NCBI GenBank assembly: GCA_943736015.1
Contig: OX031073.1
Span: forward strand, 24,703,210 to 24,767,209
DNA: 64,000 nucleotides
Source: Tridacna crocea
Lineage: Eukaryota; Mollusca; Bivalvia; Cardiida; Cardiidae
Direction of reading: 5' to 3'
How positions within the stretch are numbered: position 1 is the first letter of the stretch; every line of letters starts with the position of its first letter. The notes under the pieces were generated by a model. The model worked only from the letters and a program-made list of their open reading frames with translations, was not told the origin of the DNA and did no database searches. Of the stretch, positions 6,618 to 51,421 are shown piece by piece. The position numbers and the translations under genes are program-made.

Positions 6618-6837
6618 CCCATTACCACACAATCCCTACTTTTGACGCCCCTGAGACAGAAGCCTCTAGAAAACACTGTGGGAAAAGGAGAAAATGCTGG
6701 TAACCAGCATTTTCTCCTTTTCCCACAGTGTTTTCTACCCTTTCCGGAACAAATTTCAATTTTTCAGTCACCTTTATTTTGTCGTCTGCAAATGCTTTCA
6801 ATTTGGACCAGTCTAAAATTTTCTCGTGTGGTAAAGA
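6618..6837 (+). mobile_element. Family A MITE, well preserved
   Basis: The left TTAA is 6614-6617; the right site has decayed to GTAA. The palindrome arms carry the paired CACTG/CAGTG change also seen in the copy at 51201. Confidence 0.88.
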
Positions 6838-6901
6838 GTAATGGCAATTCCGTGTGGCATTATATCATGGAAATCATCCAATAATGATGGATCCATTATA
6901 A

Positions 6902-7305
6902 TCTACACTAGGACGAAAAAGAAACGCAGGGTAACCATTTAAGGTAGGTTAAAGGTGTATAACTTGATTGGAAATTCTAAATTATGATTTTATGTTTACC
7001 ACTGATCAGTTTTGAATATTTTCACGAATTTTCATTTCAGTGTGGACAAAAGGAAATGAGAAAATGGCTTCTTATTGACATTAGCCCCATCCTCAGTGAA
7101 AACATAGGCAATGAGTTTGGTTTTTACACTTATTTATTTTTCGAATTTTGTTTCGAATTTTGGAATTTTGTTTCGAATTTTGGAATTTTCGTTAACTCTG
7201 TGGCGACAACCGCCACAAAAACGTAGTGACCGACTGCATATGGAGACTCAAAGCTTGTTCAATATCTCGTATGGTACACTGCGTTTCTTTTTCGTCCTAG
7301 TATAT
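6902..7305. mobile_element. 404-bp element with about 30-bp terminal inverted repeats
   Basis: CTAGGACGAAAAAGAAACGC at 6908-6927 recurs exactly inverted at the right end (22 identical bases, 6908-6929 versus 7279-7300), with weaker similarity extending outward and inward. The interior has a TTTCGAATTTTGGAA tandem patch at 7138-7190 and no coding content. A TA flank is possible. Confidence 0.7.
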
Positions 7306-7329
7306 TTTGCCTTATAACCAAATGATATC

Positions 7330-7470
7330 TGAGTTAAAATGGCATCTGAACAAACAGAGTTCAAAAATAGCAAAAAGTTTCGAATCAGGTCAGCCTGCGC
7401 AAATTGGGCATGCTTGCCTGATTCGATACTTTTTGCAGATACATTCAGCTCCTTTTTCATAGAATTTGAC
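7330..7470 (+). repeat. Family D interspersed repeat
   Basis: It shares the GTCAGCCTGCGCAAATTGGG core and the GATACTTTTTGCAG block with 4433-4572 and 18028-18140. Confidence 0.6.
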
Positions 7471-7497
7471 CCAAATATTTGTTTTGCAGTTATTTAA

Positions 7498-7718
7498 CTC
7501 ATTACCACACAACAATATTTTAGGCTCATCCAAATCGAAAGCATTTGCAGACGACAAAATAAAAGTGACTGAAAATTTGAAATTTGTTTTGTGAAGGATA
7601 GAAAACATTGTGGAAAAAGGAGAAAATGCTGGTAACCAGCATTTTCTCCTTTTCCCACGATGTTTTCAAAAGGCTTCTCTTTCAGGGCCGTAAAAACCAG
7701 GGATTGTTTGGTAAAGGA
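7498..7718 (-). mobile_element. Family A MITE, 221 bp
   Basis: TTAA lies at 7494-7497 and 7719-7722. The flanks are in reverse orientation, yet the central heptamer is GGTAACC, which in most reverse copies is GGTTACC. Confidence 0.92.
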
Positions 7719-8089
7719 TTAAAGAAGAAATCCGGGATTAAAATCTGCGAATACAGGGCGTTTACGTCGATCGTTTATGTCAAACGAAGTTATCTTCTCG
7801 TGAAATCTCGTCAGGGGCGTGACTGTCACGTAGTTTTTTGATGAACCCACTAAAGAACGTTATCGGCGGGCTATTGTCTCTACCGCGCTAGACAATTTAT
7901 AAATAAAACGCTACAAAAACCCATCAGTGTACGAAGCGTATTGGAGACGAAACGCCATTTAAAGATGGCTGCCCTCTCAACCATAACCAATTGCTGTATT
8001 AATTCGTTATTTCCTGAGAAATATTTGTTTAACAGCCGATTTTTTTTTAAAAATAAAAACATCCGTGTAAGAAAAAAATGTACAATGTG

Positions 8090-8200
8090 AATGACGGCGG
8101 GGTTAATATATTAATGTTAAAAACATGGTGAGAAAAGGAGAAATTCCTCGAAACGAGGAATTTCTCCTTTTCCCACCACGTTTTTAAAAGCGTTCAGTTG
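8090..8200. mobile_element. A-like palindrome with a different core (TTCCTCGAAACGAGGAA)
   Basis: GAGAAAAGGAGAAATTCCTCG and its inverse form a perfect arm pair at 8114-8177. The outer arms (AAAACATGGTG / CACCACGTTTTT) resemble family A. The ends are not defined, although TTAA motifs occur at 8083-8105. Confidence 0.6.
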
Positions 8201-8203
8201 CAT

Positions 8204-8216
8204 GGGGGGGGGGGGG
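8204..8216. repeat. Poly(G) run of 13
   Basis: This is an uninterrupted G homopolymer next to the palindrome at 8090-8200. A poly(A) run follows at 8346-8367. Confidence 0.9.
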
Positions 8217-8219
8217 AAA

Positions 8220-9720
8220 TAGTCTCCTTTGGGTGGTAATGTTTGCATCCTTATAATATCTGAATCTAATTAGGAAACTTTTTGCATAACTAAAGCTTAG
8301 GTCAAGATCAGACAACTTTTCTAAGAGTGCTTACTTACCCTTAATTGAAAAAAAAAAAAAAAAAAAATCTCGAAACCTTCTTTTCTTTCTTTTTCTGAAT
8401 AGAAATACGTCGGTTCCTTTTTAGTTATGCTGTCAAAAGAGGGTTTCATGGACCTTCGTGATGCATTATACTGAGTAAGTCATTATAAAACAAGAAAATT
8501 TTGATGCAGAACATCAATGACGCTGCAAATCAATTGCTTCTGAAATATACCACATTACAGCATTTCAAATTGTTCAAGGTAAATTTTTATGCAGAAATCG
8601 GTGAGGAATGAACTGAGAAGCCCTAAACAATCCTTAGAATCCAATTAAAAACTCAAAAAAGAAAGAGGCAATAATGGTAAGACACAGTTATACCCATTCT
8701 TCGGCGAATTTAACCAAAGTTCAATTGGAGCTTTATACAAAAGCAGTTGTAACTCGGCAATCATTACAAGAAAATAGTAATAAGACTAGATGCTACATTA
8801 CCAAATTGATATAAAAAAAAAAAAACTGGGAATGAAATAACCAAAGTTAACACTAAATGATCAAAGTAAGTACGGAATGACCAAGAAAAAATATATAACG
8901 GTGGGTACGAAATGACCAAACTTGCACGAAATGGCCTTGGTACGACATGATCTTATTACAAAATGACTAGAAGCTGAGTAAACAATATGGCTGTCTCCAT
9001 AGGTACTTTTCAAAAGCGAATAAAAATATAATGCCGCCACTCATACGGCGCCAAAGTAACAGGTTCATATGCAAATAATCAATGTTGTCTTGCGAATTAC
9101 TAAGTCTGGATATAGAATGGTCTTCTGACATGTGGAAATTTAAAAAAAAAAAATGCGAAAAGCAAAGTTATGTAATCACCATGTCTACTGTAACACCATA
9201 GGGAATAAATTAAACACTAAGTCTTATTTTCATGTTAACTCCTATAGATATTCAATATTTCGGCCAGAGTCCTTTTTCAAGAACAAAAAAGAAACTTTCA
9301 CTGCTACTACATTTTAACAGTCTTCGCGAGCCAAGTTTTACGATCACTACGTGGATCTTACCTTGGCTGATTAAGCCCGATTTCAGATTCCTTCGATGCG
9401 TCCTCTATTGGATGCTGGTTATAACCCCCCTTTACATCATATTTCTCAAAGCCAATGAAATATCGTTTTACAAACCGCTTACGAACACATATGAAGCAAT
9501 AAGCAGACATCCACGTGGGTTTCCATGTTTACCTTCTATTCGAAAGGCAGCTACCTTCTTCTATTTTTATCAACGATGAAATGCTACGAGCGATTTCATC
9601 CGTTGCAGTTAGAGCTGGCTGCATCCATTGAAAAAGCGTATCGGGGGAACGCAAAAATCAAGCTCGATCCGCCAAGGGTAGAGTAGCGTAGTGAATCGTC
9701 AGCCTTGGCTTGCGAAGATG
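8220..9720. other. Unassigned non-coding DNA
   Basis: No recognisable repeat ends are present. The motif AAATGACCAAA recurs at 8825-8930. A 115-codon open frame at 9232-9579 shows no known domain or splice context and is not called a gene. Confidence 0.5.
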
Positions 9721-9785
9721 CAGTCCCACCATGACAGTTTGTTAACAAACAAGCTGTCATATAAACAAACTGTCATGGTGGACTG
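9721..9785. repeat. Short palindrome, arms about 22 bp
   Basis: CAGTCCCACCATGACAGTTT and its inverse flank a 20-bp middle. It is probably the remains of a foldback element. Confidence 0.7.
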
Positions 9786-9789
9786 ATGA

Positions 9790-10310
9790 CGGAAGCCCCT
9801 GTCTCACCCAACCTGTTCTTGTAGAAAGTCTTACCCCGGTCAACAAAATCCCTGCTGCGGTCGAGAAGGGACGTTTCATTAAAATCTCTTTTGCCAGAAT
9901 GTGGCTGAGTAGTAGAAAAAGCGAAGATATTTAAAGAAATAGAGAGCATATATTGTCGTTGAACAAAGTGAAAAATCATCCAGGAAAATGGCACAAGGAG
10001 TTCAAACCCTCCCCTCCTCCCTCCCGTTTTTATTTTGAATGAGTTTTAGTGTAGACTAAAATAGCATTTAAACCACTAGTTTCAGAGATAAAAATAATGA
10101 CATAAGATAATAGATATAAATATATGAGAAATTAGGTAATCAAGATTTAATTCCCGACCTATTAAATGATAATTGGCATATTCATTGTATGGCATATAAA
10201 ACAACAAATCTTACCCTGTCGTATTTTTCAAAATTGTCGACGAAAATAAAATTAACTTTTGTTGCATTGTTTGACAATGGGTGGGTTTAAATATAGAGGG
10301 CTACTAAAGG
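9790..10310. other. Unassigned non-coding DNA
   Basis: AT-rich sequence with no repeat ends, hairpins or open frames that I can support. Confidence 0.4.
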
Positions 10311-10312
10311 AG

Positions 10313-10382
10313 CGACGGAGAGTGTAGAGCAAGATCAGACTGCACTTACGTGCAGTCTGATCTTGCTCTAAACTCTCCGAGA
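10313..10382. mobile_element. Family B hairpin, partial
   Basis: The family B hairpin (AGATCAGACTGCAC / GTGCAGTCTGATCT) has outer arms changed on both sides to GAGCAAG/CTTGCTC. The flanks are lost. Confidence 0.65.
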
Positions 10383-10703
10383 AATGAAGGTACGTTCGTG
10401 AAAGTCAGAATAAGAGTTAAAACAATAAAGACGTATCAGAGGCGATTAGTTGCACAATGATAAATTATTTTTGATTACGACAGAAGATTTTCCCGATTAA
10501 AAATACGCAGGGAGTCGTCTCGCCATCGTTTAAGGTAATTATACCCTGCAGACGTACAGTTTTTTGCCTTGCATTAAGTCATTTTGTCGCAATATTCTTC
10601 ACTTTCATTCAACCATAAACATTTTTGTCAATTTTTCCCAACACGCCTAATATTATATTTTTGCGACTAAATTTGATTTTCGAACGGCGCAGATGTAAGA
10701 TTA

Positions 10704-10895
10704 CAGAGCCCCAGTTACGGAGGGGAGGTGGTATTCTAAATCCGTTATTTCTCATCCAAACCCTATGTTGTGGGTACTCATTAGAATCGTCTCAATGAGA
10801 CGATTCTAATGAGTACCCATAACATAGGGTTAAGTGGAGAATAATTGATATTTTTAATTTTGAAACCAAAATTACACCCTCTATCTGGAGCCCTG
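10704..10895. mobile_element. 192-bp foldback element, CAGAGCCCCAG/CAGGGCTCCAG ends
   Basis: The ends start CAG and are roughly inverted. The middle (10765-10837) is a near-perfect hairpin with arms of about 33 bp around GTCTCAATGAGAC. CAGGG-type ends suggest a hAT-like MITE, but no 8-bp duplication is visible. Confidence 0.6.
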
Positions 10896-10984
10896 ATTTG
10901 ACTGCACATGCAGTGGTAAGTTTCAGCTTTTATCGCCCTTTTTCTCGAAAAGGTTTTTAGGCATCCTAGGACACGTACATGCCG

Positions 10985-11064
10985 TGGTGTCCGTGGTTGT
11001 GAGGAAGAGCTTTGGCCTCGTAACTATACGGTCCAAAGTTCGATTCCCGGAGGCAGATATCAAC
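10985..11064 (+). repeat. tRNA-derived SINE head
   Basis: GTGGTTGTGAGGAAGAGC (A box) and AAGTTCGATTCCCGG (B box) have tRNA-like spacing. A related copy is at 34012-34095. The stem pairing is too poor for a tRNA gene. Confidence 0.6.
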
Positions 11065-11068
11065 CTAA

Positions 11069-11284
11069 CCCTTTACCAAACGACAAAATTTTAGACTGGT
11101 CCAAATTGAAAGCACTTGCAGACGACAAAATAAACTCAAAAATTGAAATTTGTTGCCAGCTGAGTAGAAGACTTTGTGGGAAAAGGAGAAAATGCTGGTT
11201 ACCAGCATTTTCTCCTTTTCCCACAATGTTTTCAAAAGGCTTCTATCTCAGGGTCGTAAAAACCAGGGATTGTTTGGGAAAGGG
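11069..11284 (-). mobile_element. Family A MITE
   Basis: It begins CCCTTTACCAAACGAC and ends TTGTTTGGGAAAGGG with TTAA 11285-11288; the left site reads CTAA. The palindrome is nearly perfect. It abuts the SINE head to its left. Confidence 0.88.
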
Positions 11285-11344
11285 TTAAATCAATGAATCA
11301 CCCATCATTGGTCCACACATTCAGAGCGAGAACTGTTTTCAGTT

Positions 11345-11474
11345 TTGTCTCGGGGTGTAACAACTCCTTATCGGACAGTGTAGATCCAAGATCAGACTGC
11401 ACGTTCTGTGGAGTCTGATCTTGACCTACACTATCCGCAAAAAGTCAGTGAGTCGCGCTTTGGAGCCTAAGGGT
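11345..11474 (+). mobile_element. Family B MITE, partial
   Basis: The hairpin lies at 11375-11437, followed by the conserved GTCAGTGAGTCGCGCTT and GCCTAAGGGTTT end. The left third is missing. Confidence 0.75.
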
Positions 11475-11512
11475 TTGAATTTGTCTTGTTTTTCAGACAA
11501 AAATATCTTTAA

Positions 11513-11734
11513 TTCATTACCAAATGACAATATTTTGGCCTTGCCCTAGTCGAAAGTGTTTGCAGACGACAAAATAAAAGTGACTGAATATTTGAAATCT
11601 GTTTTGTGAAGGGTAAAAAAACATTGTGGGAAAAGGAGAAAATGCTAGTTACCAGCATTTTCACCTTTTCGCACAATGTTTTCTGAAGGCTTCTCTCTCA
11701 GGGTCGTCAAAAGTAGGGATTGTGTGGTAATGGA
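11513..11734 (-). mobile_element. Family A MITE, 222 bp
   Basis: TTAA lies at 11509-11512 and 11735-11738. The palindrome has several unpaired changes. Confidence 0.88.
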
Positions 11735-12284
11735 TTAACGAAAAGCAATACGCATTGACCAACAAGAAGCGAAAATAAAAGACAATGATTCACTGCTGTC
11801 AGTGTTGTAAGTTTTGATGGATGCCAAGTGAATTAAAATAGAGGCAAGGAAAAGGCCACAAAGAAGAGCTGTAAATCATAGAAATGGAACACAATCACGC
11901 TTTCCCACAATGTCAGACAAAGTCAACATTTGCTTTTCTGAGAAAATGCCATGTAACAAATAGTTTGATTGCAGACGGGTTCGCGAGGAAGAACTAATTC
12001 CTCACAAATCCGTCAGTGACCAGTCTGTATCGAATGTACCAGTCTAATAGATCGAAACGAGGTTCATTTCCGGTAGAGACATAATGGCGTCATAAAGAAA
12101 ACTGTGTATTTGGCAGGAGGCGCAAAAAGCATCTTAATATAATGTAATTTTGTTGTTCTCTGTTTGATACAATGACATCGGAGCGGGGGTTCAAATGTAG
12201 ACGATTTATTTGATTGTGAATTTCTAGATGGTATCCAAACCAGACCGTGCCAGCCCGAGTGTTCAATAAGTTAAAGTTTTACTT

Positions 12285-12818
12285 AATGAATGAATGAATG
12301 AATGAATGAATGAACGAATGAATGAATGGGTGAGTGAGTGAGTGAGTGAGTGAGTGAGTGAGTGAATAAATAAATGAGTGAGTGAGTGAGTAAGTGAGTG
12401 AGTAAGTGAGTGAGTGATGAGTGATCGAGTGCATGCATGCATGAATGAATGAATGAATGCATGCATGAATGAATGAGTGGATGAGTGAGTGAGTGAGTGA
12501 GTGAACTGATAAATGAATAAATAAATGAGTGAGTGAGTGAGTGAGTGAGTGGTGAATGAGCGAATGAATGAATGAATGAATGAATGAATGAATGAATGAA
12601 CGAATTAATGAATGGGTGAGTGAGTAAATGAATGAATGAATGAATGAATAAATGAATGATTGAATGAGAGAGAGAGTGAGTGAGTGAATAACTGAACAAA
12701 TTAGTGTGTGAGTGAGTGAGTGAGTGAGTGAGTGAGTGAGTGAGTGAGCGAGCGAGCGAGTGAGTGAGTGAGTCAGTGAGCGAGTCAGGGAGTGAGTGAG
12801 TCAGTGAATGAATGAGTC
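12285..12818. repeat. Tetranucleotide array (TGAA/TGAG)n
   Basis: Over 500 bp of interleaved TGAA and TGAG runs with ATGC interruptions. The long open frames on the minus strand are repeat artefacts rich in S, H, T and I/L. Confidence 0.95.
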
Positions 12819-12859
12819 TGCAAAGACTAAATTATCTTTTATATTCAGGTTTAGTTTAA

Positions 12860-12932
12860 ACTCTTTACTAAGCAACACTATTCTAGACTTGTCTAAACAA
12901 ATTTGCAGACAACAAACAATTATGGTAATGGG
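12860..12932 (-). mobile_element. Family A MITE with palindrome deleted
   Basis: ACTCTTTACTAAGCAACA at the left, an internal TTTGCAGAC block and GGTAATGG at the right edge, with TTAA at 12856-12859 and 12933-12936. The whole hairpin is gone, as expected from loss of a palindrome during replication. Confidence 0.65.
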
Positions 12933-13619
12933 TTAAGGGAAAAAATGATCGGGCTGGAGCCCGGGCGACTCTGGTGGTTGCAAAAAGGGCGATGACGCCG
13001 CCACAACATGACTGGGAAAGACCGCCCTCCATCCACACGGACCCCACCCACCGCAAGACGTAGATCTACTCGGTATTTGAACATTACTAAAGTATACATT
13101 ACACGTTATCATATAAGATACACTTTGTTTAATCCTCAACTAAGATTAATCTTTGCCTTCATAAGTACAAATTTGCTCATCTCCGAAATTAACTCCTCAA
13201 AAATTGATAACATAATATACAGTCAGACATAAGTTAAGCATCACCAAAACTGACCAGCAATAGTCCATGTACTTAGACCAGCATCACTCATGCCCACAAT
13301 TTGCTATTTCTGGGCTTCGGAAAGTTTTCTCGTAGATATCCTTTCATTTGGCTTATAAAACAACCTGTTACTTGTCTAGTGGGTCCGTGCATAGCTTGCA
13401 AATACATGTATACCAAATAAAAGGTTATCCATTAAAAAAGATTATGACTAAATTTGTTCGGGTGATCCGTAACTTATGTCTGACTCCATATCATGGGAAA
13501 AATTGATTTAAATGGTTACCTCCATTTTTTTTTATTGTTACAAAATTTTCTTTATTGTTACAAAATTTTCCGAGTTCATCTTCAAAATTGAGAACATTGT
13601 ATTCATTGATTGTCTTGAT

Positions 13620-13895
13620 TGTATGGTGTTTAACGCCGTTTCAACATTATTTCAATTATATCTCGGTGGCCAGTGCACCTATATATGCTTTCCTAGGGCC
13701 TCTTTTACCAGTACTCAGCATGATTTTCTTTCCAAACCACTGGCTGCTTTCCCACATAACCATCATCGAAACAATGGTCAGCAGTGAGAGAGGAATGAAT
13801 CCTGTCGCAATGACTATCATCAATCCTCGGAAAAAACTTGGCCAAGCCGGGCCAAGCCGGGGATCGAACTCACGAGCCCCATATTGTATCCAAAA
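13620..13895 (-). mobile_element. tRNA-derived SINE, antisense, about 275 bp
   Basis: The body begins GTATGGTGTTTAACGCCG. The right part carries an inverted B box (GGGATCGAACTCACGAG). The A-box end is degraded. Confidence 0.75.
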
Positions 13896-13921
13896 GGGAT
13901 TTATGCCTGTATTCTCTTTTC

Positions 13922-14092
13922 AACGTCTGACCATTCATTTCAACGACCATGAGGAAAGGGGCTTTTTGAAAACAATGCGGTAAAAGGAGAAAATGCTGGT
14001 GAACAGAAATATTCCTTAAATATTTCTTTTTTTACTTTTCCACAACAAATTCCATCATTTTAGCAAAAATTTAATCCGTCATCTGCAAATCT
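13922..14092 (+). mobile_element. Family A MITE, strongly degraded
   Basis: The left arm GGTAAAAGGAGAAAATGCTGG and a GTCATCTGCAAA segment remain. The right arm is disrupted. Confidence 0.5.
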
Positions 14093-14130
14093 GACAAATA
14101 CGGAGGGGTATGGAGGATTACTAAGTCATA

Positions 14131-14348
14131 AGCAGACGACAAATATTTTCGACTTTGTCCAAATTGAAAGCATTTGCAGACGACAAATTAAAATTGGCTG
14201 TAATGATCTTACCTACTCATAAAAGGGTAGAAAAAATTGTGGAAAAAGGAGAAAATGCTGGTTACCAGCATTTTCTCCTTTTCCCACAATGTTTTCAAAA
14301 GTCTTTTCTGTTAGGGTTGTTAACAACTCGGCACTGTGTGGTCAAGGA
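14131..14348 (-). mobile_element. Family A MITE
   Basis: The GCAGACGACAAAT and TTTGTCCAAATTGAAAGC blocks, a good palindrome at 14230-14295, and a CTGTGTGGTCAAGG end are present. The terminal TTAA has decayed. Confidence 0.8.
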
Positions 14349-14368
14349 TTGAGGAGTCATCTCGTTAA

Positions 14369-14591
14369 CCCTTTCTTTACCAGACGACAAAATTTTAGCT
14401 GTGCCCGAATTGAAAGCATTTGCAGACGACAATTTCAATGTGCCTCAAATGGTGTAAATTTTCTTTGATAGGGTAGAAAACACTGGGAAAAGAAGAAAAT
14501 GCTGGTAACCAGCATTTTCTTCTTTTCCCACAATGTTTTCAGAAAGCTTCTTTTCCAGGAGCGTCAAATGTCGGCATTGTGTGGTAAAGGG
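14369..14591 (-). mobile_element. Family A MITE with covarying arms, 223 bp
   Basis: TTAA lies at 14365-14368 and 14592-14595. The arms read AAAGAAGAAAATG and CATTTTCTTCTTT where the family has AAGGAG/CTCCTT, so both arms changed together. The central heptamer is GGTAACC in a reverse copy. Confidence 0.9.
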
Positions 14592-14889
14592 TTAAGCAAT
14601 ATGGGGGTATAGCACTTAAGATAGCGAATCAAAACAATCTTACGCAATATTTTCATTGAAGTTTTAATGAACCAAACTACAACGAAAATACCGACACGCG
14701 CGCCCTCTGTCCGCAATTGACCCGTCTTAATGAGCAAAAGTTAAATATTACTAAGAAATTTTATCAGCATTTATTTGGTTAATGTAAAACTCTCAATAAA
14801 ATTGCCCCACCCCTCCCCGCTGTTTCTTTTTGCTTCTCCAATCTCTCGCAGAATGATAAACCCTATCAATTTCAAATAATCCTAAACCG

Positions 14890-14990: not shown

Positions 14991-15045
14991 CTTACATCCC
15001 CTTTCGTCCCTTTTTCATTTTCATTGTCTGAATTATTCCTTCTAT

Positions 15046-15176: not shown

Positions 15177-15179
15177 TTG

Positions 15180-15935: not shown

Positions 15936-16156
15936 CCCTTTACCCCATAAGGCATTTCTATGATATCTCTAATTGACCCTAAATAACAGTAAGGATGAAG
16001 CCGTTTTTTATGTGTATATGACACCTTTTGATAGCATAGAAAGCATTGTGGCAAAAGGTGAAATTGCTCGTGACGAGCAATTTCACCTTTTGCCACAATG
16101 TTTTCCAAAGGCTCCTTCAAGCAATGTGTAGAAATGAGTATCTATGGAGTAAAGGG
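15936..16156 (+). mobile_element. Family A2 MITE, 221 bp
   Basis: TTAA lies at 15932-15935 and 16157-16160. The perfect palindrome has the TTGCTCGTGACGAGCAA core. It has the same orientation and layout as 4194-4416. Confidence 0.92.
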
Positions 16157-16205
16157 TTAAAAGAAAACAGAGAAGTGAAACATAGCGCTACGGAGGTCTG
16201 CTTAA

Positions 16206-21031: not shown

Positions 21032-21246
21032 GTTTTTCCAACAAACCTGAATTTAAGCACCCTGAAGAAGAATGCTTTTGAAAAGATTGTGGAAAAAGCA
21101 GAAAATGCTGATAACCAGCATTTTCTGCTTTTATCACAATATATTAATCCCATTAACTTCAAAAATCATCATTTAAGTTACCTTTATTCTGTCGTCTGCA
21201 AATCCTTTCAATTTTATTCGCGTCCATAATTTTGACGCTTAGTAAA
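21032..21246 (+). mobile_element. Family A MITE with covarying arms
   Basis: The arms read AAAGCAGAAAATGCTG and CAGCATTTTCTGCTTT, with GCAG/CTGC replacing GGAG/CTCC on both sides. The right end lies at TTAA 21247-21250. Confidence 0.75.
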
Positions 21247-38465: not shown

Positions 38466-39060
38466 TTAAAAACGCTACCTCAGAAACAAAGGAAAAAAAC
38501 CTGAAAACAATAGAAGTTTTAGCATGAGTCTGTCTCATCTTATCATAAACATAATTTTGTTTTTAGTGTAATAGATCTACATTGAATATTACAAGGAAAA
38601 ACAATTAATGTTACAATGGTTCTCATCTTGTACACATTCGAAATATGCAAAGTGTGGCAAGCCCTTGTTTTTATGTGTCTGCAGTTCAAGTCTTTAGAAA
38701 ACACTGTGGGTAAAGGAGAATTGCTCGTAACGAGCAATTTCTCCTTTTCCCAGTGTTTTCTAGCCTATCGGAAAACTTTCTGCCATTCTCATCAAATTCA
38801 AAATTGTCATCTGCAAACACTTGGAGTTTGGGACAGTCAAAAATTTGTCATTTGGGAAAGGGTTAAAAACACTATCTTAGAAACAAAGAAGAAAAAAAAC
38901 ATTCTGAAAATGATAGAACTTTTAGCATGAGTCCATCTCATCTTATCATATAAATAATTTTCTTTTTAGTGTAATATATCTATACTAAACATTACAAAGA
39001 AATATAATTAATGTTACAATGGTTCTCATCTTGTACACATTTGAAATATGCAAAGTGTGA
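38466..39060 (+). repeat. Direct duplication of about 195 bp flanking a MITE
   Basis: 38466-38659 and 38867-39060 match closely (AGAAACAAAG, TTTTAGCATGAGTC, ATGTTACAATGGTTCTCATC). An A-like MITE occupies the space between them. Confidence 0.85.
38655..38862 (+). mobile_element. A-like MITE with TTGCTCGTAACGAGCAA core
   Basis: Family A-type outer parts (CTTTAGAAAACACTGTGG, GTCATCTGCAAACAC, TTTGGGAAAGGG) surround an A2-like core. The right TTAA is 38863-38866. It looks like an intermediate between A and A2. Confidence 0.75.
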
Positions 39061-39805: not shown

Positions 39806-39810
39806 CACTG

Positions 39811-40023
39811 ACTCTTTACCAAACGACAAAATTCTAGACTTGTCTAAATTGACACCATTTGCAAGCTACCAGTTGAATGTGACTCAAATAATAGAGTTTT
39901 GTCGTTTTTAGGGTTGAAAACATTTTGGAAAAAAGAGAAAATGCTCTTTATTGGCATTTTCTCCTTTTTCCAAAATGTTTTCAAAAAGCTTCTTCCTCAG
40001 GGTTGTGACTGAGTGGTAAAGGG
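39811..40023 (-). mobile_element. Family A MITE with covarying arms
   Basis: ACTCTTTACCAAACGAC at the left; TTAA 40024-40027 at the right. The arms read CATTTTGGAAAAA and TTTTTCCAAAATG, both departing from the family sequence in matching positions. Confidence 0.82.
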
Positions 40024-40397
40024 TTAAATGGCAACTTTAAAATCTATCACAAAAATATAGCATATTTTGAGACATTATGGTTAAACATATTGATATGTGA
40101 ATACAATAAAAGACAATTAAATAAATAAATTATGTAACTAAGTGTTAATGTATACAACATACTGATATGTTCTATGCCTGGACGGAAATACACAAGTTAC
40201 AGTACATGTGAAACACTTCTTTTTCACAAAGACATTTTTCTTGCACATAACTTTTTTCCACAGAATAAATTTGTTTTAAATACAGTTTTTCAAAATAATA
40301 CTTTTAAACAAAGGATTTTCTTCTGGACAAGAAAAAACATAAACAATGATAAATTCTGGTAGACTGTTTCTAGATGAAATTGACGTTTTATTTGATA

Positions 40398-40980: not shown

Positions 40981-41206
40981 AACCTTTGATCAAACAATTC
41001 CTAGCTTTAATGACCCAAAAGAAGACGACTTATAACAATACTGTTGAATAAGGATTGATGCAGGTTACAAGCATTTTCTCCTTATTCAACAATATTTTTT
41101 CTACCCTTCCAAACACAAACTTTGGTTTTTGAGTTGCTTAATAATTTTGTCATCTGAAAATGCTCTCAATTTGGACAAGTCAAAAGTTTTATCATTTGGT
41201 AAAAAG
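40981..41206 (+). mobile_element. Family A MITE with strongly covarying arms
   Basis: The arms TTGTTGAATAAGGA and TCCTTATTCAACAA pair perfectly, although both differ from the usual GTGGGAAAAGGA / TCCTTTTCCCAC. TTAA is at 41207-41210. Confidence 0.8.
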
Positions 41207-41210
41207 TTAA

Positions 41211-42255: not shown

Positions 42256-42261
42256 GAATGT

Positions 42262-42805: not shown

Positions 42806-44107
42806 AAACAAGAGGGCCATGATGGCCTTGTATGGCTCCACAGTCTAATAAGTAAAAACACTACAGGCCAAATATTACAATATTTGGCCAATTGGTTTCA
42901 AACTTGAGGACATACAAAATTTTTTCTACAAAATCCTACAAGAAAGTTGTGACACCCCCCCCCCCCACCCCAAGCCAATTTTGACTGCAAAGCTATAATT
43001 ACTTGAATCCTGGTGGAAGTCCAAAAGATAAAAGCCCATACCAAATAATACAGGTCTAGAATGTGTGATTATAAACAAGAAGATTTTCACAGTTTTCTCA
43101 ATAAAAGTCCCTGTAAAACATGAAACCCATGAGACAGGGCTAAATTTAGTAGCCCTACTCTTTATTATGGTTAGTGACAAGATGATGTCTTAGAATGTTT
43201 TCACCACAAAAGCCCATGTAAAACTTGTGACCCCTGGTTTGGGGACAAACTTGACCCCAAGGCTATGATTTGGACTCTCCTGGTAGAGGCCCACTAGATA
43301 AAGCTAGACGCAAAATTTCTAAGCCCTAGGCCTTATGGCTAGGTACAAGTAGATTTTTAAAATTTTCCCAATATGAGCCCATGTAAAACTCGCAATCCCC
43401 AGGACAGGGCCAAATTTAATCCCAGGGCTATAATTTGGGCACCTTTGGTAGACAACCACTTGATAAAGCTACATGCAAAATTGAGTAGCCCTAGGCCTTA
43501 TGGCTTGGTACAAGAAGATTTCTGAAGTTTTCCCTATATAAGCCAATATAAAACTTGTGACCCCCAGGGCCCAGCCAAATTTGACCCCTGGGCTATCATT
43601 TGGGAACTCTTGGTAGACAATCACTTGATAAAGATACATGCCAAATTTGGTAGCCTTAGGCCCTATAGCTATGTACCAGAAGGGTTTTAAAGTTTTCCCT
43701 ATATAAGCCCATATAAAACTTGTGACCCCCGTGGCGGGGCTAATTTTGACCCCAGGGCTATTATTTGAAGGAACTTTGTAGAGGTAAAGTTACATGCCAA
43801 ATATGGTAGCCCTAGACCTTATGGTTTCAGAGAAGAAGATTTTTAAAATTTTCAATATTTTTCAGTTTTGTTGCCATAGCAACCAGAGTTTTTGAAGGAA
43901 TCCAATTCTTTCAAGGAATTCTTAAGAGGACCATGTCAGGATCATTTCTGTGAAGTTTCATCATCAAAATTGGGTGGGTAGTTTCAGAGAAGATGTTTGA
44001 AATAAAAGTTAACACACGCACAGATGCACGCACACATGGATGGACACTTGTACGACAGACACCGGGCCATGACATAAGCCTGCTGGCCATAGGCCAGTGG
44101 AGCTAAA
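42806..44107 (+). mobile_element. Pearl/Helentron-associated-like element with 167-bp tandem repeats
   Basis: It opens AACAAGAGGGCCATGATGGCC and closes GGCCAGTGGAGCTAAAA. Between them the unit marked by TAAAACTTGTGACCCC recurs at about 43214, 43382, 43549 and 43714 (165-168 bp apart), with older units before. The tail contains GTTGCCATAGCAACCAGAG. Such interspersed satellites in bivalves are linked to Helentrons; that assignment is from general knowledge. Confidence 0.7.
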
Positions 44108-44109
44108 AT

Positions 44110-44570
44110 TCCAGAATAGGTTGTAGGTTGCCTCTTTTCGTTTTGGCCAAATTTCTACCTTCGTAGAGGCTCGAAATAGTTTTACAGCCATCTTGAATAT
44201 CGAAATTTTCATGGGGAGGCCCCCTCTTTTGCTCCCCCCTCACTCGCCTATGGCATTCATGCACACCTTCAGTGTGCATATAATTTATTTTTTCTTGGTT
44301 ACGCCCCTGATTGGTGTGACTGTCTGAGGTACAATTAATATTTTGTCCCAGTACAGACTGTCCTAGGAGCAAATTTTGTCTGGCTACTAATTGTCCTAAA
44401 TTCAAATTGTCCTTGGTACCACTTGTGGTAAGTGCCTATAGTTATTGCTAACTTTTGTCTTTGGGACCAATTGTCCCTGGAATATGTCTTGCAGTAAGTC
44501 CCAATTGTCCAAGTTACCATTTGTCCTTTAAGTCAGGTACCAACTGTCCTGGTACCAATTATTCTAGATG
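44110..44570. other. Unassigned DNA with short TTGTCC repeats
   Basis: From 44345 to 44570 the motif ATTGTCC preceded by short variable spacers recurs about ten times (minisatellite-like). No gene. Confidence 0.5.
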
Positions 44571-44575
44571 CCAAT

Positions 44576-44740
44576 TTGGTTTGGGAAGGGTAGAAAACAT
44601 TGTAGGAAAAGGAGAAAATGCTGGTAACATTGTAGTTAAAGGAGAAAATGCTGGTTACCAGCATTTTCTCCTTTTCTCACAATGTTTTCTACAGGCTTCT
44701 TTCTTACAGTCATTAAACTTTGGGATTGTGTGGTATAGAG
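44576..44740 (-). mobile_element. Family A MITE with duplicated left arm
   Basis: The arm ACATTGTAG...GGAGAAAATGCTGG occurs twice in a row, 30 bp apart, before the single right arm. TTAA is at 44741-44744. Confidence 0.8.
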
Positions 44741-44758
44741 TTAAACTGCAATCTGCAT

Positions 44759-44915
44759 ATGCTGGCAATTTCAGGCTGTTTTCAACATTATTTTTGTTAT
44801 GCCATGGCGGCCAGGTAACCTATCTATGCTCTCCTGGAGTTTTTATTCCCAGCACATTGCACAATATTCTTCCCAAGCTGGCTGCTTTCCCACGTTACCA
44901 TTATCGAAAATGTTA
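44759..44915 (-). mobile_element. SINE fragment, antisense
   Basis: TTTTCAACATTATTTTTGTT and TGCCATGGCGGCCAGG match the SINE body. The tRNA head is missing. Confidence 0.6.
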
Positions 44916-44991
44916 AAGAATTTATGAGAATATTCCATGCAGAATGATCTACACTTAGAAAAGGCAAGCGAAAATGTAATAGGCATCTTAA

Positions 44992-45221
44992 CCCATTTGC
45001 ACGCAATCCCTACTTTTGACATCCCTGTAAAAGAAGCCTCTATAAAACATTGTGTGAAAAGGAGAAAATGCTAGTAACCAGCATTTTCTCCTTTTCACAC
45101 AATGTTTTCCACTCTTCACAAAATAAATTTCAAATTTTCAGTCACTTTTATTTTGTTGTCTGCAAAATTTTTAATGCTTTCGATATGGACAAGCCTAAAA
45201 ATATTGTTGTTTGGAAATGAG
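44992..45221 (+). mobile_element. Family A MITE with covarying arms, 230 bp
   Basis: TTAA lies at 44988-44991 and 45222-45225. The arms carry TGTGTGAAAAGG and CCTTTTCACACA in place of TGTGGG/CCCACA. Confidence 0.9.
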
Positions 45222-45229
45222 TTAATTGT

Positions 45230-45925
45230 TTCCAATTAGTGTTAGTTTCGTCAAAGTATATTTTTTGAATGCTTAAAATTCTAAATATTTCTCAGGCAGA
45301 TTTTCAAAATTTATCAGATTTCATAGACACACACAAAAGAAAGAGGAAAGCCAAAAGCTATTTAAACTGTAACAAAAAACTTGAAACATTATTTTTTTGT
45401 CAAAAAAGGAGACAAATTTGTTCAATACAAAAAAAAAGACCAGATTTTTAAGTACAAACACATAATCTTCATTTCTTTCTACATCATAATTTTACCCCCA
45501 GTGAATGATCAATGAAACTAGAAATGCACTTATCATTTCGAAAATAGTTCGAATTCATTGCTAACAAAATCATCCCGATTATCTGATAATCTTTCAAAAG
45601 CTCACATAAAACTGTTAAAGGAGGAGCCAATTTTCGACTTCCACCATATAATTATACAGGCTTGTGAACAAAAGCTTTCTATGTTATTTATGGTAATAGG
45701 TCTCGAAAAACATTTTAACAGTGACTATCTGGAGACATACAAATGTTATCACTTTTCCCTTCTCTAAATGGTTGACAATAAAATGCTGTGAATATTCAAT
45801 GTTTACCACTTCTGCACTGAAACAAACCAAAGGAGAGAATTTTCTGATACTTCAAAAGAAGTTCAAAGTGTACAAATGTCATGCAAATTATGTATTACAT
45901 AATTCTATTTGCATTCTTAGGTACC
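45230..45925. other. Unassigned AT-rich DNA
   Basis: No element ends or recognised coding content. Confidence 0.4.
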
Positions 45926-45931
45926 TCTTAA

Positions 45932-46115
45932 CTCTTCACCAAATAACAAAATTTTAAACTTGTCCAAACTGAAAATTTTTTTCTGAAAAGAAATCAATCA
46001 TGACCTAACTGATGGATTTGTCATGGAAATGATAGAAAACATTGTAGGAAAAGGAGAAAATGGTGGGAACAAGCACATTATCTTCAAAAGTCTATTACCT
46101 AGAGGATCAAGACAG
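45932..46115 (-). mobile_element. Family A MITE, right arm lost
   Basis: TTAA lies at 45928-45931 and 46116-46119. The left arm is intact up to AAAATGGTGGG, then the palindrome is missing. Confidence 0.7.
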
Positions 46116-46160
46116 TTAATCATATAGAGCGTTACCCTAAACATAGCATTTACTTATTAA

Positions 46161-46517
46161 CCCATTACCACACAATCCCTACTTTTGACGCTCCTTAGAA
46201 AGAAGCCTTTAGAAAACATTGTAGGAAAAGGAGAAAATGCTGGTAACCAGCATTTTCTCCTTTTCCCACAATGTTTTCGACCCTTCACAAAACAAATTTC
46301 AAATTTTAAGTCCGACAAGCCCCTCAGAATGCATGAAGCCTTTAGAGAAGATTGTGGGAAAAGGAGAAAATGCTGGTTACACCAGCATTTTCTCCTTTTC
46401 CCACAATGTTTTCTACCCTACACAAAACAAATTTCAAATTTTCAGTCACTTTTATTTTGTCCTCTGCAAATGCTTTGAATTTGGACCTGTCTAAAATTTT
46501 GTTGTATGGTAAAAGAG
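46161..46517 (+). mobile_element. Family A MITE dimer with two hairpins, 357 bp
   Basis: One pair of ends (TTAA 46157-46160 and 46518-46521) encloses two complete palindromes, at about 46209-46275 and 46345-46412. The second centre reads GGTTACACC. It lies 27 bp upstream of the LINE. Confidence 0.88.
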
Positions 46518-46544
46518 TTAAGGATTGTTGATGCAAAGGACTGA

Positions 46545-47140
46545 TAAGTAAAAGCCTGAGATTATTCCTTTGTTTCTGCGCATGCGTGGAGTATGGACGC
46601 TTTTTTCTTGAAAATTTTGAATAAACAATAAAAACTGGATTATTAATTCTATTTAGAGCTTGATATCAGTGAATTGCATCTTAACTGTCATATGGACGTA
46701 CAATGTATGGAATTGAGTGGTTATTATGAAATTTTGGACTTATTATGGGAAGAAAACGGCCACGGAGTAAGATAACACCAGAGAACAATGGAAATGAGAA
46801 AAGGCGGGCTTCAGTGAGTACTAAAGACAATTCATTGAATAATGCCAAATATGAACATAAGTCTGCAACAATGAACAACCAACACCAGTTTCAATCACCT
46901 GTTAATGGAAATTTTGTACAATATGGGCAAAATTTTGCGTCACCGCAACTACCTACAGCACAGACCCAGGTTGCACAAGCACAGAGTCATGGATCACCGT
47001 GTATTACCCCTAGCTATAATACACCACCGACATTCTTAAATCTAACGGGGACTGATCAGTTTTCAGCTATCCTGAACAGGCTTGAATTAATAGATAATAA
47101 GCTATGTCAGTTAGAAGACATTCAAAAATCGGTCAGGTTT
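46545..47140 (+). repeat. Upstream copy of a 596-bp tandem duplication in the LINE 5' region
   Basis: This block repeats at 47141-47736 with an offset of exactly 596 bp; the two ORF1 start codons are at 46745 and 47341. I count about four single-base differences, so the duplication is recent. It covers the whole 5' UTR and the first 130 or so codons of ORF1. The join at 47138-47141 replaces the ORF1 continuation and gives a stop soon after. Confidence 0.95.
46577..46589 (+). promoter_or_regulatory. NRF1-like palindromic site in the LINE 5' UTR (duplicated at 47173-47185)
   Basis: The bases TGCGCATGCGTGG closely match the alternating pyrimidine/purine NRF1 consensus (YGCGCAYGCGCR). The site sits about 30 bp from the 5' end of each 596-bp copy, where a LINE internal promoter is expected. 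The function is inferred from motif and position only. Confidence 0.4.
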
Positions 47141-47143
47141 TAA
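46745..47143 (+). pseudogene. Truncated ORF1 start in the upstream LINE duplicate
   Basis: This 132-codon frame matches the first 131 residues of the full ORF1 at 47341-48384 except for about one residue. It ends at the duplication junction, so it holds only the low-complexity basic N-terminus and the beginning of the coiled coil. It lacks the RNA-binding region and is probably not functional by itself. If transcription begins in the upstream copy, this short frame would lie ahead of the true ORF1 and could act as an upstream ORF. Confidence 0.9.
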
Positions 47144-47340
47144 GTAAAAGCCTGAGATTATTCCTTTGTTTCTGCGCATGCGTGGAGTATGGACGCTTTT
47201 TTCTTGAAAATTTTGAATAAACAATAAAAACTCGATTATTAATTCTATTTAGAGCTTGATATCAGTGAATTGCATCTTAACTGTCGTATGGACGTACAAT
47301 GTATGGAATTGAGTGGTTATTATGAAATTTTGGACTTATT

Positions 47341-48384
47341 ATGGGAAGAAAACGGCCACGGAGTAAGATAACACCAGAGAACAATGGAAACGAGAAAAGG
47401 CGGGCTTCAGTGAGTACTAAAGACAATTCATTGAATAATGCCAAATATGAACATAAGTCTGCAACAATGAACAACCAACACCAGTTTCAATCACCTGTTA
47501 ATGGAAATTTTGTACAATATGGGCAAAATTTTGCGTCACCGCAACTACCTACAGCACAGACCCAGGTTGCACAAGCACAGAGTCATGGATCACCGGGTAT
47601 TACCCCTAGCTATAATACACCACCGACATTCTTAAATCTAACGGGGACTGATCAGTTTTCAGCTATCCTGAACAGGCTTGAATTAATAGATAATAAGCTA
47701 TGTCAGTTAGAAGACATTCAAAAATCGGTCAGGTCCATAAACAGCAGATTAGACAAGTTGGATTCGAAAGTGGCCAATCTTGAAACTAAAATGAGTGATG
47801 TAGAGAAAAGTAGAGATTTTGACTCTTCAGCAATAGAATCTATAAAAGCTAAGCAAAAAGAACTAGATACTATGCTAGCAGGAATAAAGAATCTTGAACA
47901 GCAGCAGCAGCAACAAACAGAGGCAGTGAGGAAGGAGCTGATAGATCTAAAGGCGCGCAGTATGCGAGACAATCTATTGTTTTTTGGCATTCCGGAGCAA
48001 AAGGGTGAACGTGATAGTGATTGTGTTAATAAAGTACTTACAATGATAGAGGAAAAATGCAAAATAGAAGACGCTAAAGCTAACATCAAGTTACACCGTG
48101 CACATAGGATCGGACGATTTCATAAGGACAAAACCCGACCCATTGTGGCTAAATTTGCTTACTATCCGGACCGGGAGAAGGTACGTCACAGTGCAGATCA
48201 GCTCACTAGACCTGAGGGCATCGCACAGCAATTTCCTCAGGAGGTAGTAAATACTAGAAAAAGACTGTATCCTGTTTTGAAAAGGGCCAGAGACAGTGGG
48301 AAAGAGGCTTATTTGGTGATGGACCGGTTGTACATCGATGGTGCTCTGTACAGGGAACCTACAACACAGGGAGGGAATCAATAG
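47341..48384 (+). CDS. LINE ORF1 protein: coiled coil plus L1-type RNA-binding domain, 347 aa
   Basis: This is the probable nucleic-acid chaperone of the retrotransposon particle. Residues 1-100 are basic and rich in Q, N and S. A heptad-rich coiled coil runs from about residue 105 to 205 and includes a glutamine run near residue 188. The segment from about 204 to 290 opens with RSMRDNLLFFGIPE and contains LHRAHRIG, which is the pattern of the L1 ORF1 RRM-like (Transposase_22) domain. A basic C-terminal domain follows (ARDSGKEAYLVMDRLYIDG). The start codon is shared with the upstream duplicate. The frame ends in TAG at 48382-48384, and ORF2 begins in the same frame directly after it. Confidence 0.92.
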   Translation: MGRKRPRSKITPENNGNEKRRASVSTKDNSLNNAKYEHKSATMNNQHQFQSPVNGNFVQYGQNFASPQLPTAQTQVAQAQSHGSPGITPSYNTPPTFLNLTGTDQFSAILNRLELIDNKLCQLEDIQKSVRSINSRLDKLDSKVANLETKMSDVEKSRDFDSSAIESIKAKQKELDTMLAGIKNLEQQQQQQTEAVRKELIDLKARSMRDNLLFFGIPEQKGERDSDCVNKVLTMIEEKCKIEDAKANIKLHRAHRIGRFHKDKTRPIVAKFAYYPDREKVRHSADQLTRPEGIAQQFPQEVVNTRKRLYPVLKRARDSGKEAYLVMDRLYIDGALYREPTTQGGNQ

Positions 48385-48439
48385 GACAATAGCGGGAATA
48401 TTGTGAAGTGTTTACAATGGAATATTGAGGGTCTTACAC

Positions 48440-49020
48440 CACTCTCTTGCACTCCGGATCATTACATTTACCTCTGTAGTGGGCTCAGAAAGTAGACCGT
48501 CATTACGTCATATTTTTGTCACATGACCATAACTCAAAATAGCTACACAAACGCCGGTGAAAGAAAGACCAATACCGATTGTTTCGTGTGCTGTTTAAAC
48601 AGCATGGGACCAATCAGACTTAAACGATAGTTAATGAACACAAGAGGGACTTTCTGAAAAGCCTAAATATCTTTATAGGACGATAACTTGATTTTTAATC
48701 GAACAAACTTAGATCCAGCGGTGTGTCAAATCAGTTGTCATCATTGATGGGCGCATCTATTTTTGTTACAATCGGCGTAAGATTCTTAAAAGTGAAGAGG
48801 CTAAAAGAAAAATAGTTCCATTTAATACAGGCAAATTCATCAGTTTCAACGCACCTATAATGTACCCAGAATCATATTTCCTTTGTCTAACTTACAATTT
48901 TACATATGAAACAGTTAAACAGTAACAAAACATCTTTTCCTCGGTTTGACAAGATTCTTGTCATTTAGCCCATCGCAGAGATGTATGTGAGGTAACGAAC
49001 GACAACTCTGCTCGGAGATT
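48440..49020. mobile_element. 581-bp insertion in the LINE endonuclease with 11-bp direct repeats
   Basis: Identical 11-mers GGGTCTTACAC lie at 48429-48439 and 49021-49031. Removing one repeat and this block rejoins the endonuclease frame exactly (IEGLT followed by RDKLNDNEF). The two ends show weak inverted similarity around GTGGGCT. No coding region is visible. It is probably a non-autonomous DNA transposon with a target duplication of 8-11 bp; a MULE-like or hAT-like origin is possible but unproven. Confidence 0.75.
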
Positions 49021-49133
49021 GGGTCTTACACGTGATAAACTGAATGACAATGAATTTTCAACTTTGATTAACAAATATGATCTAATAATTTTATCTGAAA
49101 CATGGACTAATAAGAATTCAAAAATATCTTTAA

Positions 49134-49354
49134 CCCATTACCACTCAATCCCTACTTTTGACGCCCCTGAGAAAGAAGCCTTTTGAAAACATTGTGGGAA
49201 AAGGAGAAAATGCTGGTAACCAGCATTTTCTCCTTTTCCCACAATGTTTTCTACCCTTTGAAAAACAAATTTCAAATTTTCAGTCACTTTTATTTTGTCG
49301 TCTGCAAATGCTTTGGATTTGGACAAGCCTAAAATACTGTCGTTTGGGAAAGGG
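49134..49354 (+). mobile_element. Family A TTAA-flanked palindromic MITE, intact reference copy (221 bp)
   Basis: TTAA lies at 49130-49133 and again at 49355-49358. Removing one TTAA and the 221 bp restores LINE codons KIS-LN-GYK, so the ends are certain. They begin CCCATTACCA and, on the other strand, CCCTTTCCCAAAC. TTAA target sites with CCC-starting ends are the mark of piggyBac-type transposons. A palindrome of about 70 bp (49183-49253), with almost no loop, sits 26 bp left of centre. Plus orientation is defined here as the short flank first. Confidence 0.93.
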
Positions 49355-49358
49355 TTAA

Positions 49359-51200
49359 ATGGTTATAAACTGTTCCATTCATATAGAAAAGTCCAAAATA
49401 AAAGAGCAAAGAGAAGCAGCGGAGGAATTTTACTCTATGTTAGAAATAGCTTATCGCATGGGGTAAAATTGGTCCGTAATAGTGTAGACTGTATTCAATG
49501 GTTTAAGCTTGACAAAGCCTTTTTCAACTTAACAGAAAATATTTATATTTGTTCTACTTATATAGCCCCTGAAGGCTCACCTATTTATGAAATTTTAGAT
49601 TTCGATTTATTTGAAAAACTTGAATCAGAAATTAGATATTTTCAGAGTTTAGGGGGTAAAGTGTTTGTTTTGGGGGATCTCAATGCACGAACTGGGTGTA
49701 AATCGGATTATATTGCGGACGATTTGCCGTTATTGGGGCACGAACAAAATTACGGCCACCAGACCGGTTTGATACCTCGCATTTCATGCGACAGGGGATC
49801 AAACAGGTTTGGTGACTGTCTGTTAGAGTTATGTAAGGCAGTTGATCTACAGATTGTAAACAGACGAATAGGAAACACTTCTAATGAAGGAAAATTTACT
49901 TGTTTTACCCATAATGGAGAAAGTACAGTTGATTATTTATTGACTCATTTTCAAAATTTTGATACGATAAAAGATTTTATTGTACATGATTTTAATGTTT
50001 ATTCAAATCACGCTCCCCTTACATTCAACATCGTTGTTAATAATCAACGAACTGATTCAGTTGAAAATGATGTAAAGACAGTTTATAGATGGAATAGTTC
50101 ATACAAAGAGCTATTTAATAATGATATTGCATCCTCTATTGAATATTTAAATAAAGAAATAGAATATGGCATTTCACGTGATTTTGAACCTGATGGATTA
50201 GTCCAAATATTTTCAGATTATCTTAGCTCAGTTGGTAACAAATATTTTGAAAAGCAAATTAAGGTTTCAAAAAGGACAAACTTTAGTAATCAAAGTGAAT
50301 ACCCAAGGCAAAACTGGTTCGATGATACCTGCCAACAGAAAAAACTAGTGTATGAAAATGCATTAAAAAAATATAATTCTTTAAAAAATGATGAAAATAG
50401 ACAATATTTTATTTCTAGTAAAAAAGATTACAAATATCATTGTAGATTAACTAAACGTAAATATAATAGAAAATTTGCTAGTGATTTAGAAAATATGAGA
50501 AATAAAAAACCTAAAGAATTTTGGAAATTATTTAAACAAAAGAAAGATCAAAATTATGGCTCAGATATAGATATTGCGACATTTTTTGAACACTTTAAAA
50601 ACCTTTCATCAGATATAGAAATACAAGAAGATGTCGAATGTGAAGAATTTTTGAGTAATTTTGATGAAAATATTCATTGTATATATGAAGAGCTAGATTC
50701 ACCCTTCACTAAAGCTGAAATCAGGAAATATGTCCAAAAGTTAGGTACAAATAAAGCATGTTCAACTGATAATATCATATATGAATATTTTAAAGAATGT
50801 ATAGACTACCTTGATAAGCCACTTGTTCATTTATTCAATTACATACTGGATAAGAAAATATTTCCTAATTCATGGTCTAAGGGTGTTATTATACCTGTAC
50901 ATAAAAAGGGAGACCATTCCGATCCCACTAATTACCGAGGTATTACCTTAACTAGCTGTTTTTCTAAACTCTTTACTTCATTATTGAATGAACGACTGAA
51001 GTCATGGTCGGTAAAATACGATGTCTTAAGCGACGCACAGTTTGGTTTTAAGGCTAAATATAGTACGGTCGATGCAATCTTTATCTTAAATTCTTTTATT
51101 CAAAGACAATTTGCCAGTAAGAAAAAGTTATACTGTTGTTTTGTTGATCTACAAAAATGTTTTGATTCTATTTATCGAAATGGCCTATGGTTTAAATTAA
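49359..51200 (+). CDS. ORF2 middle segment: most of the endonuclease and N-terminal RT blocks
   Basis: This is the open part of ORF2 between the two family A insertions. It resumes at NGYK directly after the first insertion and runs to NGLWFKL at the second. It contains the GDLNARTG metal-binding motif, the SNHAPL catalytic-histidine motif, a lysine-rich linker and RT motifs 1 to A, ending just after FVDLQKCFD. Reading on into the second insertion adds about 14 foreign residues before a stop. Confidence 0.9.
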
Positions 51201-51421
51201 CTCATTACCACACGAGACAATTTTGGACTGGTCCAAATTGAGAGCATTTGCAGACTACAAAATAAAGGTGACTGAAAAATAGAAATTTGTTCTGGAAAGG
51301 GTAGAAAACACTGTGGGAAAAGGAGAAAATGCTGGTTACCAGCATTTTCTCCTTTTCCCACAGTGTTTTCAAAAGGCTTCTTTCTCAGGGGCGTCAAAAG
51401 TAGGGATTGAGTGGTAATGGG
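51201..51421 (-). mobile_element. Family A MITE, intact, in LINE RT domain (221 bp)
   Basis: TTAA lies at 51197-51200 and 51422-51425. Excision restores NGLWFKLIKNN in ORF2. The length is exactly that of the copy at 49134, but in reverse orientation. Its palindrome arms carry CACTG/CAGTG instead of the usual CATTG/CAATG, so the substitution is matched on both arms. Confidence 0.93.

Follow-up and report, generated by a model that had tools for sequence, protein, structure and literature searches.

In yeast, template switching at inverted repeats is reported to leave two kinds of mark, homogenization of the arms and inversion of the spacer between them; the spacer inversions usually have unchanged, perfect arms and, in some genes, recur and run in both directions (PMC8604942). 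Template switching has also been proposed to create and maintain RNA hairpins (PMC8794818). Here we describe family A, a miniature element of about 230 bp that is flanked by TTAA and carries an internal palindrome of 33+1+33 bp, found in a 64-kb stretch of contig OX031073.1 of Tridacna crocea (hereafter the window). The base at the center of its palindrome has been replaced by its complement repeatedly and privately in separate copies. This flip, absent from the earlier note on this DNA, is the clearest sign of fold-back copying in the family and better evidence for it than the paired changes in the arms that the note had reported.

Family A resembles the yeast system in its perfect inverted repeats, its very short spacer, its recurrent flips, which mostly leave the arms unchanged, and perhaps in occasional arm homogenization, and it displays the spacer inversion by which template switching at inverted repeats is recognized. 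It differs in that the yeast case concerns ten genes and inversions of 2 to 5 bp among strains (PMC8604942), whereas here the spacer is 1 bp, the repeat belongs to a very abundant mobile element and the copies compared lie within one genome. Like the template switches proposed for RNA hairpins (PMC8794818), family A has paired changes, several of which can fall in one tract, as in copy 40981-41210; unlike those hairpins, it is not known to yield a functional RNA, and a scan of the window gave no Rfam family at gathering score.

The palindrome occupies columns 59 to 125 of 233 in the family A consensus and is thus internal rather than terminal. The consensus begins TTAACCC and ends GAGTTAA, forming short terminal inverted repeats. 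In the predicted single-strand fold of copy 49128-49360 (−53.8 kcal/mol versus a shuffled mean of −22.6, z −9.3), both short ends pair, and outside the palindrome nothing else pairs element-wide. Of 220 full-length copies, 217 were examined for TTAA and 155 of these have it close to each end, the chance rate being 16.5% per end. Copy 51197-51427 interrupts the reverse-transcriptase open reading frame (ORF) of a long interspersed nuclear element (LINE), and removing the copy together with one TTAA restores the frame. Miniature inverted-repeat transposable elements (MITEs) of the piggyBac type are short, lack a recognized protein, duplicate a TTAA target and have ends of the form TTAACCC...GRGTTAA. 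Family A shares with them the precise TTAA duplication, the ends, the small size and the lack of a recognized protein, has the very high copy number and terminal inverted repeats of MITEs in general, and differs by its long internal palindrome. Foldback elements also fold strongly, but their long inverted repeats reach the termini, whereas the long repeat of family A is internal and its ends are short. By these sequence features, family A appears to be a non-autonomous, TTAA-type (piggyBac-like) miniature transposon.

The assembly scanned comprises 1.049 Gb in 31 contigs with eukaryotic content. The family A profile was built from six copies and then rebuilt from 57 hits; the window held 78 hits. 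To the window we added 30 loci retrieved through sequence similarity and, from four contigs, 20 spaced stretches of 10 kb each (200 kb), giving a total of 481 hits at E 1e-4 or better. One of these repeated a window copy (L001) and was removed, and 336 of the remaining 480 passed the minima of 25 aligned pairs and 50 flank columns. After removal of 5 identical rows (leaving 331) and setting apart of 20 rows of the family B type, 311 family A copies remained, 118 of them from loci chosen by similarity to copy 49128-49358. Their orientation, rechecked on the flanks alone, was clear in 284, unsure in 13, without an anchor in 14 and reversed in 0. A flank tree was made for 200 copies with flank divergence below 0.25 and at least 120 flank columns. 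In the 20 spaced loci, 229 hits make up 20.4% of the 200 kb, about one fragment per kb, and the 43 exact consensus 33-base inner palindromes found there extrapolate to 225,000 genome-wide. Hit density in the individual 10-kb stretches (L031 to L050) was very uneven, ranging from 0 to 26.

The central base could be read in 305 family A copies, the other 6 having a gap there, and was A in 255, T in 36, G in 13 and C in 1. Change from A to T was far rarer at the other A/T positions of the palindrome (2.2%; P 6e-16). The excess was already present in the least diverged copies, where 12 of 128 had a central T compared with 1.0% A>T elsewhere in the palindrome (P 6e-9), and there the neighboring positions −1 and +1 were not raised, being changed in 1/128 and 4/128, respectively. 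It held where the 5 bp on each side were intact (16/173 versus 1.2%; P 6e-10) and in each sample taken separately, the spaced loci (19/143), the window (7/46) and the similarity-fetched loci (10/116). When only copies of clear orientation with a lettered center were counted, T stood at the center in 31 of 280.

The flips are recurrent and private. On the flank tree, 19 carriers of the flip represented 19 origins, and the sister pairs comprised 48 A/A, 12 A/T and 0 T/T; sharing of the flip among nearest neighbors equaled its frequency (1.0-fold). Of the 14 flank columns richest in A/T changes, 13 clustered among neighbors 1.4- to 4.3-fold and the fourteenth, at the host boundary, 1.2-fold, a comparison that favors their clustering because these columns helped define the neighbors; the arm pair idx7, which was not so used, still clustered strongly. 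In the sister family B, the center is G in eight copies out of 11 and its complement C in the other three, with neither A nor T in any. Since the central base pairs with nothing, selection on pairing cannot set it, and the appearance of its complement at the palindrome middle in many unrelated copies is the pattern expected from spacer inversion. We also considered a hypermutable hairpin loop as the cause and rejected it, given the counts of 36 T, 13 G and 1 C and the unraised −1 and +1 positions in the least diverged copies.

The earlier note had drawn attention to six changes that appear in both arms at once. All six are present in the sequence, in seven copies, which are listed here with the other window copies to which we refer.

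49128..49358, + strand: family A copy nearest the consensus, with a perfect 33+1+33 palindrome and TTAA at both ends
51197..51427, − strand: family A copy in a LINE reverse-transcriptase ORF, TTAA duplicated, CACTG/CAGTG subfamily
51304..51370, − strand: palindrome of copy 51197..51427, with the inherited idx7 pair
6611..6841, + strand: family A copy, CACTG/CAGTG subfamily
6669..6735, + strand: palindrome of copy 6611..6841
14374..14597, − strand: family A copy with paired idx19 G>A (AAGAAG/CTTCTT), center flipped to T
21039..21246, + strand: family A copy with paired idx19 G>C (GCAG/CTGC), arms 82% matched
39809..40028, − strand: family A copy with two paired changes, idx9 G>T and idx13 G>A
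40981..41210, + strand: family A copy with four pairs in one outer tract (idx5, 11, 13 and 15), eight unpaired changes and a central T
44987..45225, + strand: family A copy with paired idx12 G>T (TGTGTGAAAAGG/CCTTTTCACACA)
7494..7723, − strand: family A copy with flipped center T, arms 94% matched
57812..58053, − strand: family A copy with flipped center T, arms 94% matched
16027..16161, − strand: family B copy (left end and palindrome) with four paired changes relative to A, center C
61132..61270, + strand: family B copy (left end and palindrome), center G, flipped relative to 16027-16161
4286..4421, − strand: family B copy (left end and palindrome), center C
38658..38866, + strand: intermediate A' copy with paired idx25 A>T and idx30 G>C (two of the four B pairs) plus paired idx7 T>C

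From these changes the note had generalized that the arms match each other better than either matches the family. The observation is real but over-generalized. Arm-to-arm identity exceeded both arm-to-consensus identities in only 3 of 47 window copies and in 10 of 311 overall, 7 of these 10 belonging to the CACTG subfamily, and it lay below both values in 26/47 and 156/311 copies, respectively. Among the seven named copies, it exceeded both in three (6611-6841, 51197-51427 and 39809-40028) and equaled the better arm in copy 14374-14597. As a general rule, better matching between the arms is therefore rejected, since it occurs in no more than 10 of 311 copies. Mean identity over the 311 copies was 0.864 between the arms, 0.920 for the left arm with the consensus and 0.916 for the right, and the first of these is near the product expected of independent arms (0.847), so the arms of resident copies mostly drift independently after insertion. 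The flanks, which the note described as drifting freely, do diverge more than the arms (0.186 versus 0.081 from the consensus), and in pairs of nearest-neighbor copies the ratio of arm to flank divergence was 0.39 to 0.53. Source differences within the flanks may explain this difference, and we did not use it as evidence of correction.

Some of the paired changes are inherited. The idx7 T>C pair (CACTG/CAGTG), seen in copies 6611-6841 and 51197-51427, was carried by 28 of the 311 copies (31 of 336 before removal of family B types and identical rows). Of the five nearest flank neighbors of its carriers, 84% shared the pair compared with 8% by chance (range of share 0.84 to 0.97), and 26 carriers on the flank tree needed 6 changes, as against 24.8 in shuffles. 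With so few changes, CACTG/CAGTG is the mark of a subfamily and was passed down as a block. Four paired changes, and roughly one unpaired change per window copy, distinguish the sister family B from A, although the alignable flanks of B are 38 to 41% different from those of A; the intermediate A' carries two of these four pairs. Judged from these sequences, source lineages seem to have exchanged one paired state for the next, and the A, A' and B palindromes are likely to be inherited states at the level of the family. The need for a foldback structure in spreading, one of two explanations offered in the note, may be real in this sense: the family-level palindromes stayed paired while the flanks diverged. 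The note had also allowed that its pairs might simply define old subfamilies inherited as blocks; this describes CACTG/CAGTG and the A, A' and B states and does not describe most of the other pairs.

We counted the remaining pairs with idx7 cells holding C masked and compared them with 400 simulation runs in which the number of changes in each arm of each copy and the rate and type of change at each site were held fixed. Before this masking, 46 window copies had 17 complementary doubles of the same letter at the true register, more than chance would give, as 16 slid registers had 0 to 6. With idx7 masked and site rates allowed for, 47 window copies had 14 complementary doubles versus 8.3 simulated, but non-complementary doubles were likewise in excess (17 versus 9.6), and the window alone is therefore weak evidence. 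Across the 311 copies, complementary doubles were in excess (78 versus 56.8; p 0.0025) and non-complementary doubles were not (62 versus 65.5; p 0.70). The excess was clear in the 224 copies with flank divergence below 0.25 (32 versus 15.4; 0/400 runs as high). Copies bearing two or more paired changes numbered 17 versus 10.1 simulated, and when copies were matched on the exact number of arm changes there were 15 pairs versus 8.0 (2 to 8 changes) and 11 versus 3.5 (2 to 5 changes).

On the flank tree, 24 carriers of these other pairs needed 20 changes (23.0 in shuffles; p 0.015), so that the pairs are mostly private and slightly clustered. None of the eight other pair types present in at least 3 copies was shared with a nearest neighbor, although chance sharing is also near zero given the few carriers. 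Genome-wide, the idx19 G>A pair of copy 14374-14597 occurs in 2140 exact 33-base inner palindromes and the same change in one arm only in 12,667; about 180 pairs would be expected if the arms changed independently (from the extrapolated 225,000), but the copies are of different ages, and the surplus could come from a subfamily. The covariation thus stems partly from inheritance and partly from a minor private excess. Arm-to-arm conversion or template switching, the note's other explanation, survives as a minor effect (78 versus 57 private pairs) and not as a rule in resident copies.

We favor, with somewhat more confidence than doubt, an explanation that combines inheritance from sources, independent drift and template switching between the arms at a low rate. 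Source lineages would stay palindromic while evolving, and pairs such as CACTG/CAGTG and the A, A' and B states would be passed on as blocks. After insertion, the arms would mostly drift independently. Occasionally, during DNA synthesis at the hairpin, a template switch would occur between the arms: copying of one arm from the other would convert a change confined to one arm into a private pair, and copying of the center from the opposite strand would invert the central base. Template switching, rather than another route to inversion, seems the likeliest cause of the flips from our analysis, and a single process would account for both marks.

Several observations weigh against this explanation. 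The private-pair excess is small and uneven with age: the 87 copies with flank divergence of at least 0.25 had 46 pairs versus 41.4 (p 0.21), and the least diverged class of 38 copies had 0 versus 0.3 expected, too few to inform. The idx19 pair, at 2140 places, may be a subfamily. The central excess is weaker when compared with A>T change in the flanks (6.6%; P 0.00065), although frequent flank changes cluster by descent. The family B centers were counted copy by copy, and some of these copies may share descent. Flips and pairs are not clearly associated, either below 0.25 divergence (3/23 pair carriers flipped versus 20/191 others; p 0.72) or over all copies (11/54 versus 25/237; p 0.065). 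Finally, a process acting during residence would require the flipped share to rise with age, and no clear rise was seen by branch quartile (3/47, 6/48, 6/48 and 4/48).

Inheritance alone, in which each pair is the signature of a source lineage, selection for a transposition hairpin maintains the palindrome and no arm is copied from the other, holds for CACTG/CAGTG (6 changes for 26 carriers) and probably for A, A' and B. The lower divergence of arms than of flanks (0.081 versus 0.186), the abundance of the idx19 pair and the slight clustering of the other pairs agree with it as well. As a full account we nevertheless consider it unlikely, for most other pairs are scattered on the flank tree (20 changes for 24 carriers), and the center flips, neutral for pairing, are recurrent and private. 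The flat relation between flipped share and terminal branch length, together with the near-independent drift of resident arms, would suit a different timing, in which flips and arm copying accompany the making of a new copy, transposition passing through a gap-repair or folded-back single-strand intermediate, and residents are stable afterwards. The numbers are small, however, and flips in 5/75 copies with 0 or 1 arm change versus 20/151 with at least 2 could be a rise. To our knowledge, cut-and-paste transposition offers no obvious single-strand step, and we regard this timing as distinctly improbable. Equally speculative is the idea that fold-back synthesis copies the hairpin each time the element multiplies, making arm repair and flips by-products of amplification. 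If true, it would account for the persistence of palindromes in source lineages, for a flipped share of roughly one in ten that depends little on age, and for the later decay of residents.

Two further accounts seem to us very improbable. Exchange with copies in inverted orientation, by ectopic conversion or by crossover within the palindrome, could flip the center and spread pairs; the copies are dense, at about one fragment per kb, and the palindrome aligns both ways. Crossover would leave products with two left or two right flanks, and these made up 1 of 245 classifiable palindromes (359 examined). Crossover between inverted copies is therefore rejected as the main cause, a result that concerns crossover and not conversion without it. 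The palindrome at L050:7348-7401 has right-flank sequence on both sides and is a possible product of inverted-copy exchange. The other account, which also tells against template switching, is an assembly or polishing artifact in which reads from copies of opposite orientation set the wrong central base, since a perfect palindrome reads the same in both orientations except at its center. Yet copies with private arm mismatches that would anchor reads were also flipped (8/44 with two changes and 5/27 with five to seven), and the centers of family B are split as well, with G in 8 and C in 3.

Compensatory change is usually taken as proof of a functional structure. Because its central base is free of pairing and flips visibly, family A lets inheritance, independent drift and template switching be separated in one genome. 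With its extrapolated 225,000 exact inner palindromes, it could serve as a natural counter of how often hairpins are inverted or corrected. Among the papers listed by searches for this combination, no title or abstract opening described flips or arm correction in a miniature transposon.

A transfer RNA scan of the window (bacterial code) found none, and the exact palindrome patterns had 0 matches in IMG/VR contigs and GTDB genomes. The LINE at window positions 49295-52867 has a reverse-transcriptase domain above the Pfam cutoff and an endonuclease domain just below it, with a frame that is continuous across the empty TTAA site. The start of the ORF upstream of its enzyme ORF is duplicated about 600 bases further upstream (46745-47143 and 47341-48384), encoding a nearly identical protein, with the upstream copy truncated. 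Elements abut one another at 14122-14597, 57038-58132 and 60952-61270 and also in loci L008 and L019, several sharing or adjoining a TTAA, and look as though new copies enter the target site of older ones. Tandem arrays other than family A lie at 53951-54765 (156-base units), 43165-43767 (165) and 62502-63641 (148/166/314), and a long degenerate array of the four-base unit TGAG, with about 133 copies, lies at 12287-12817.

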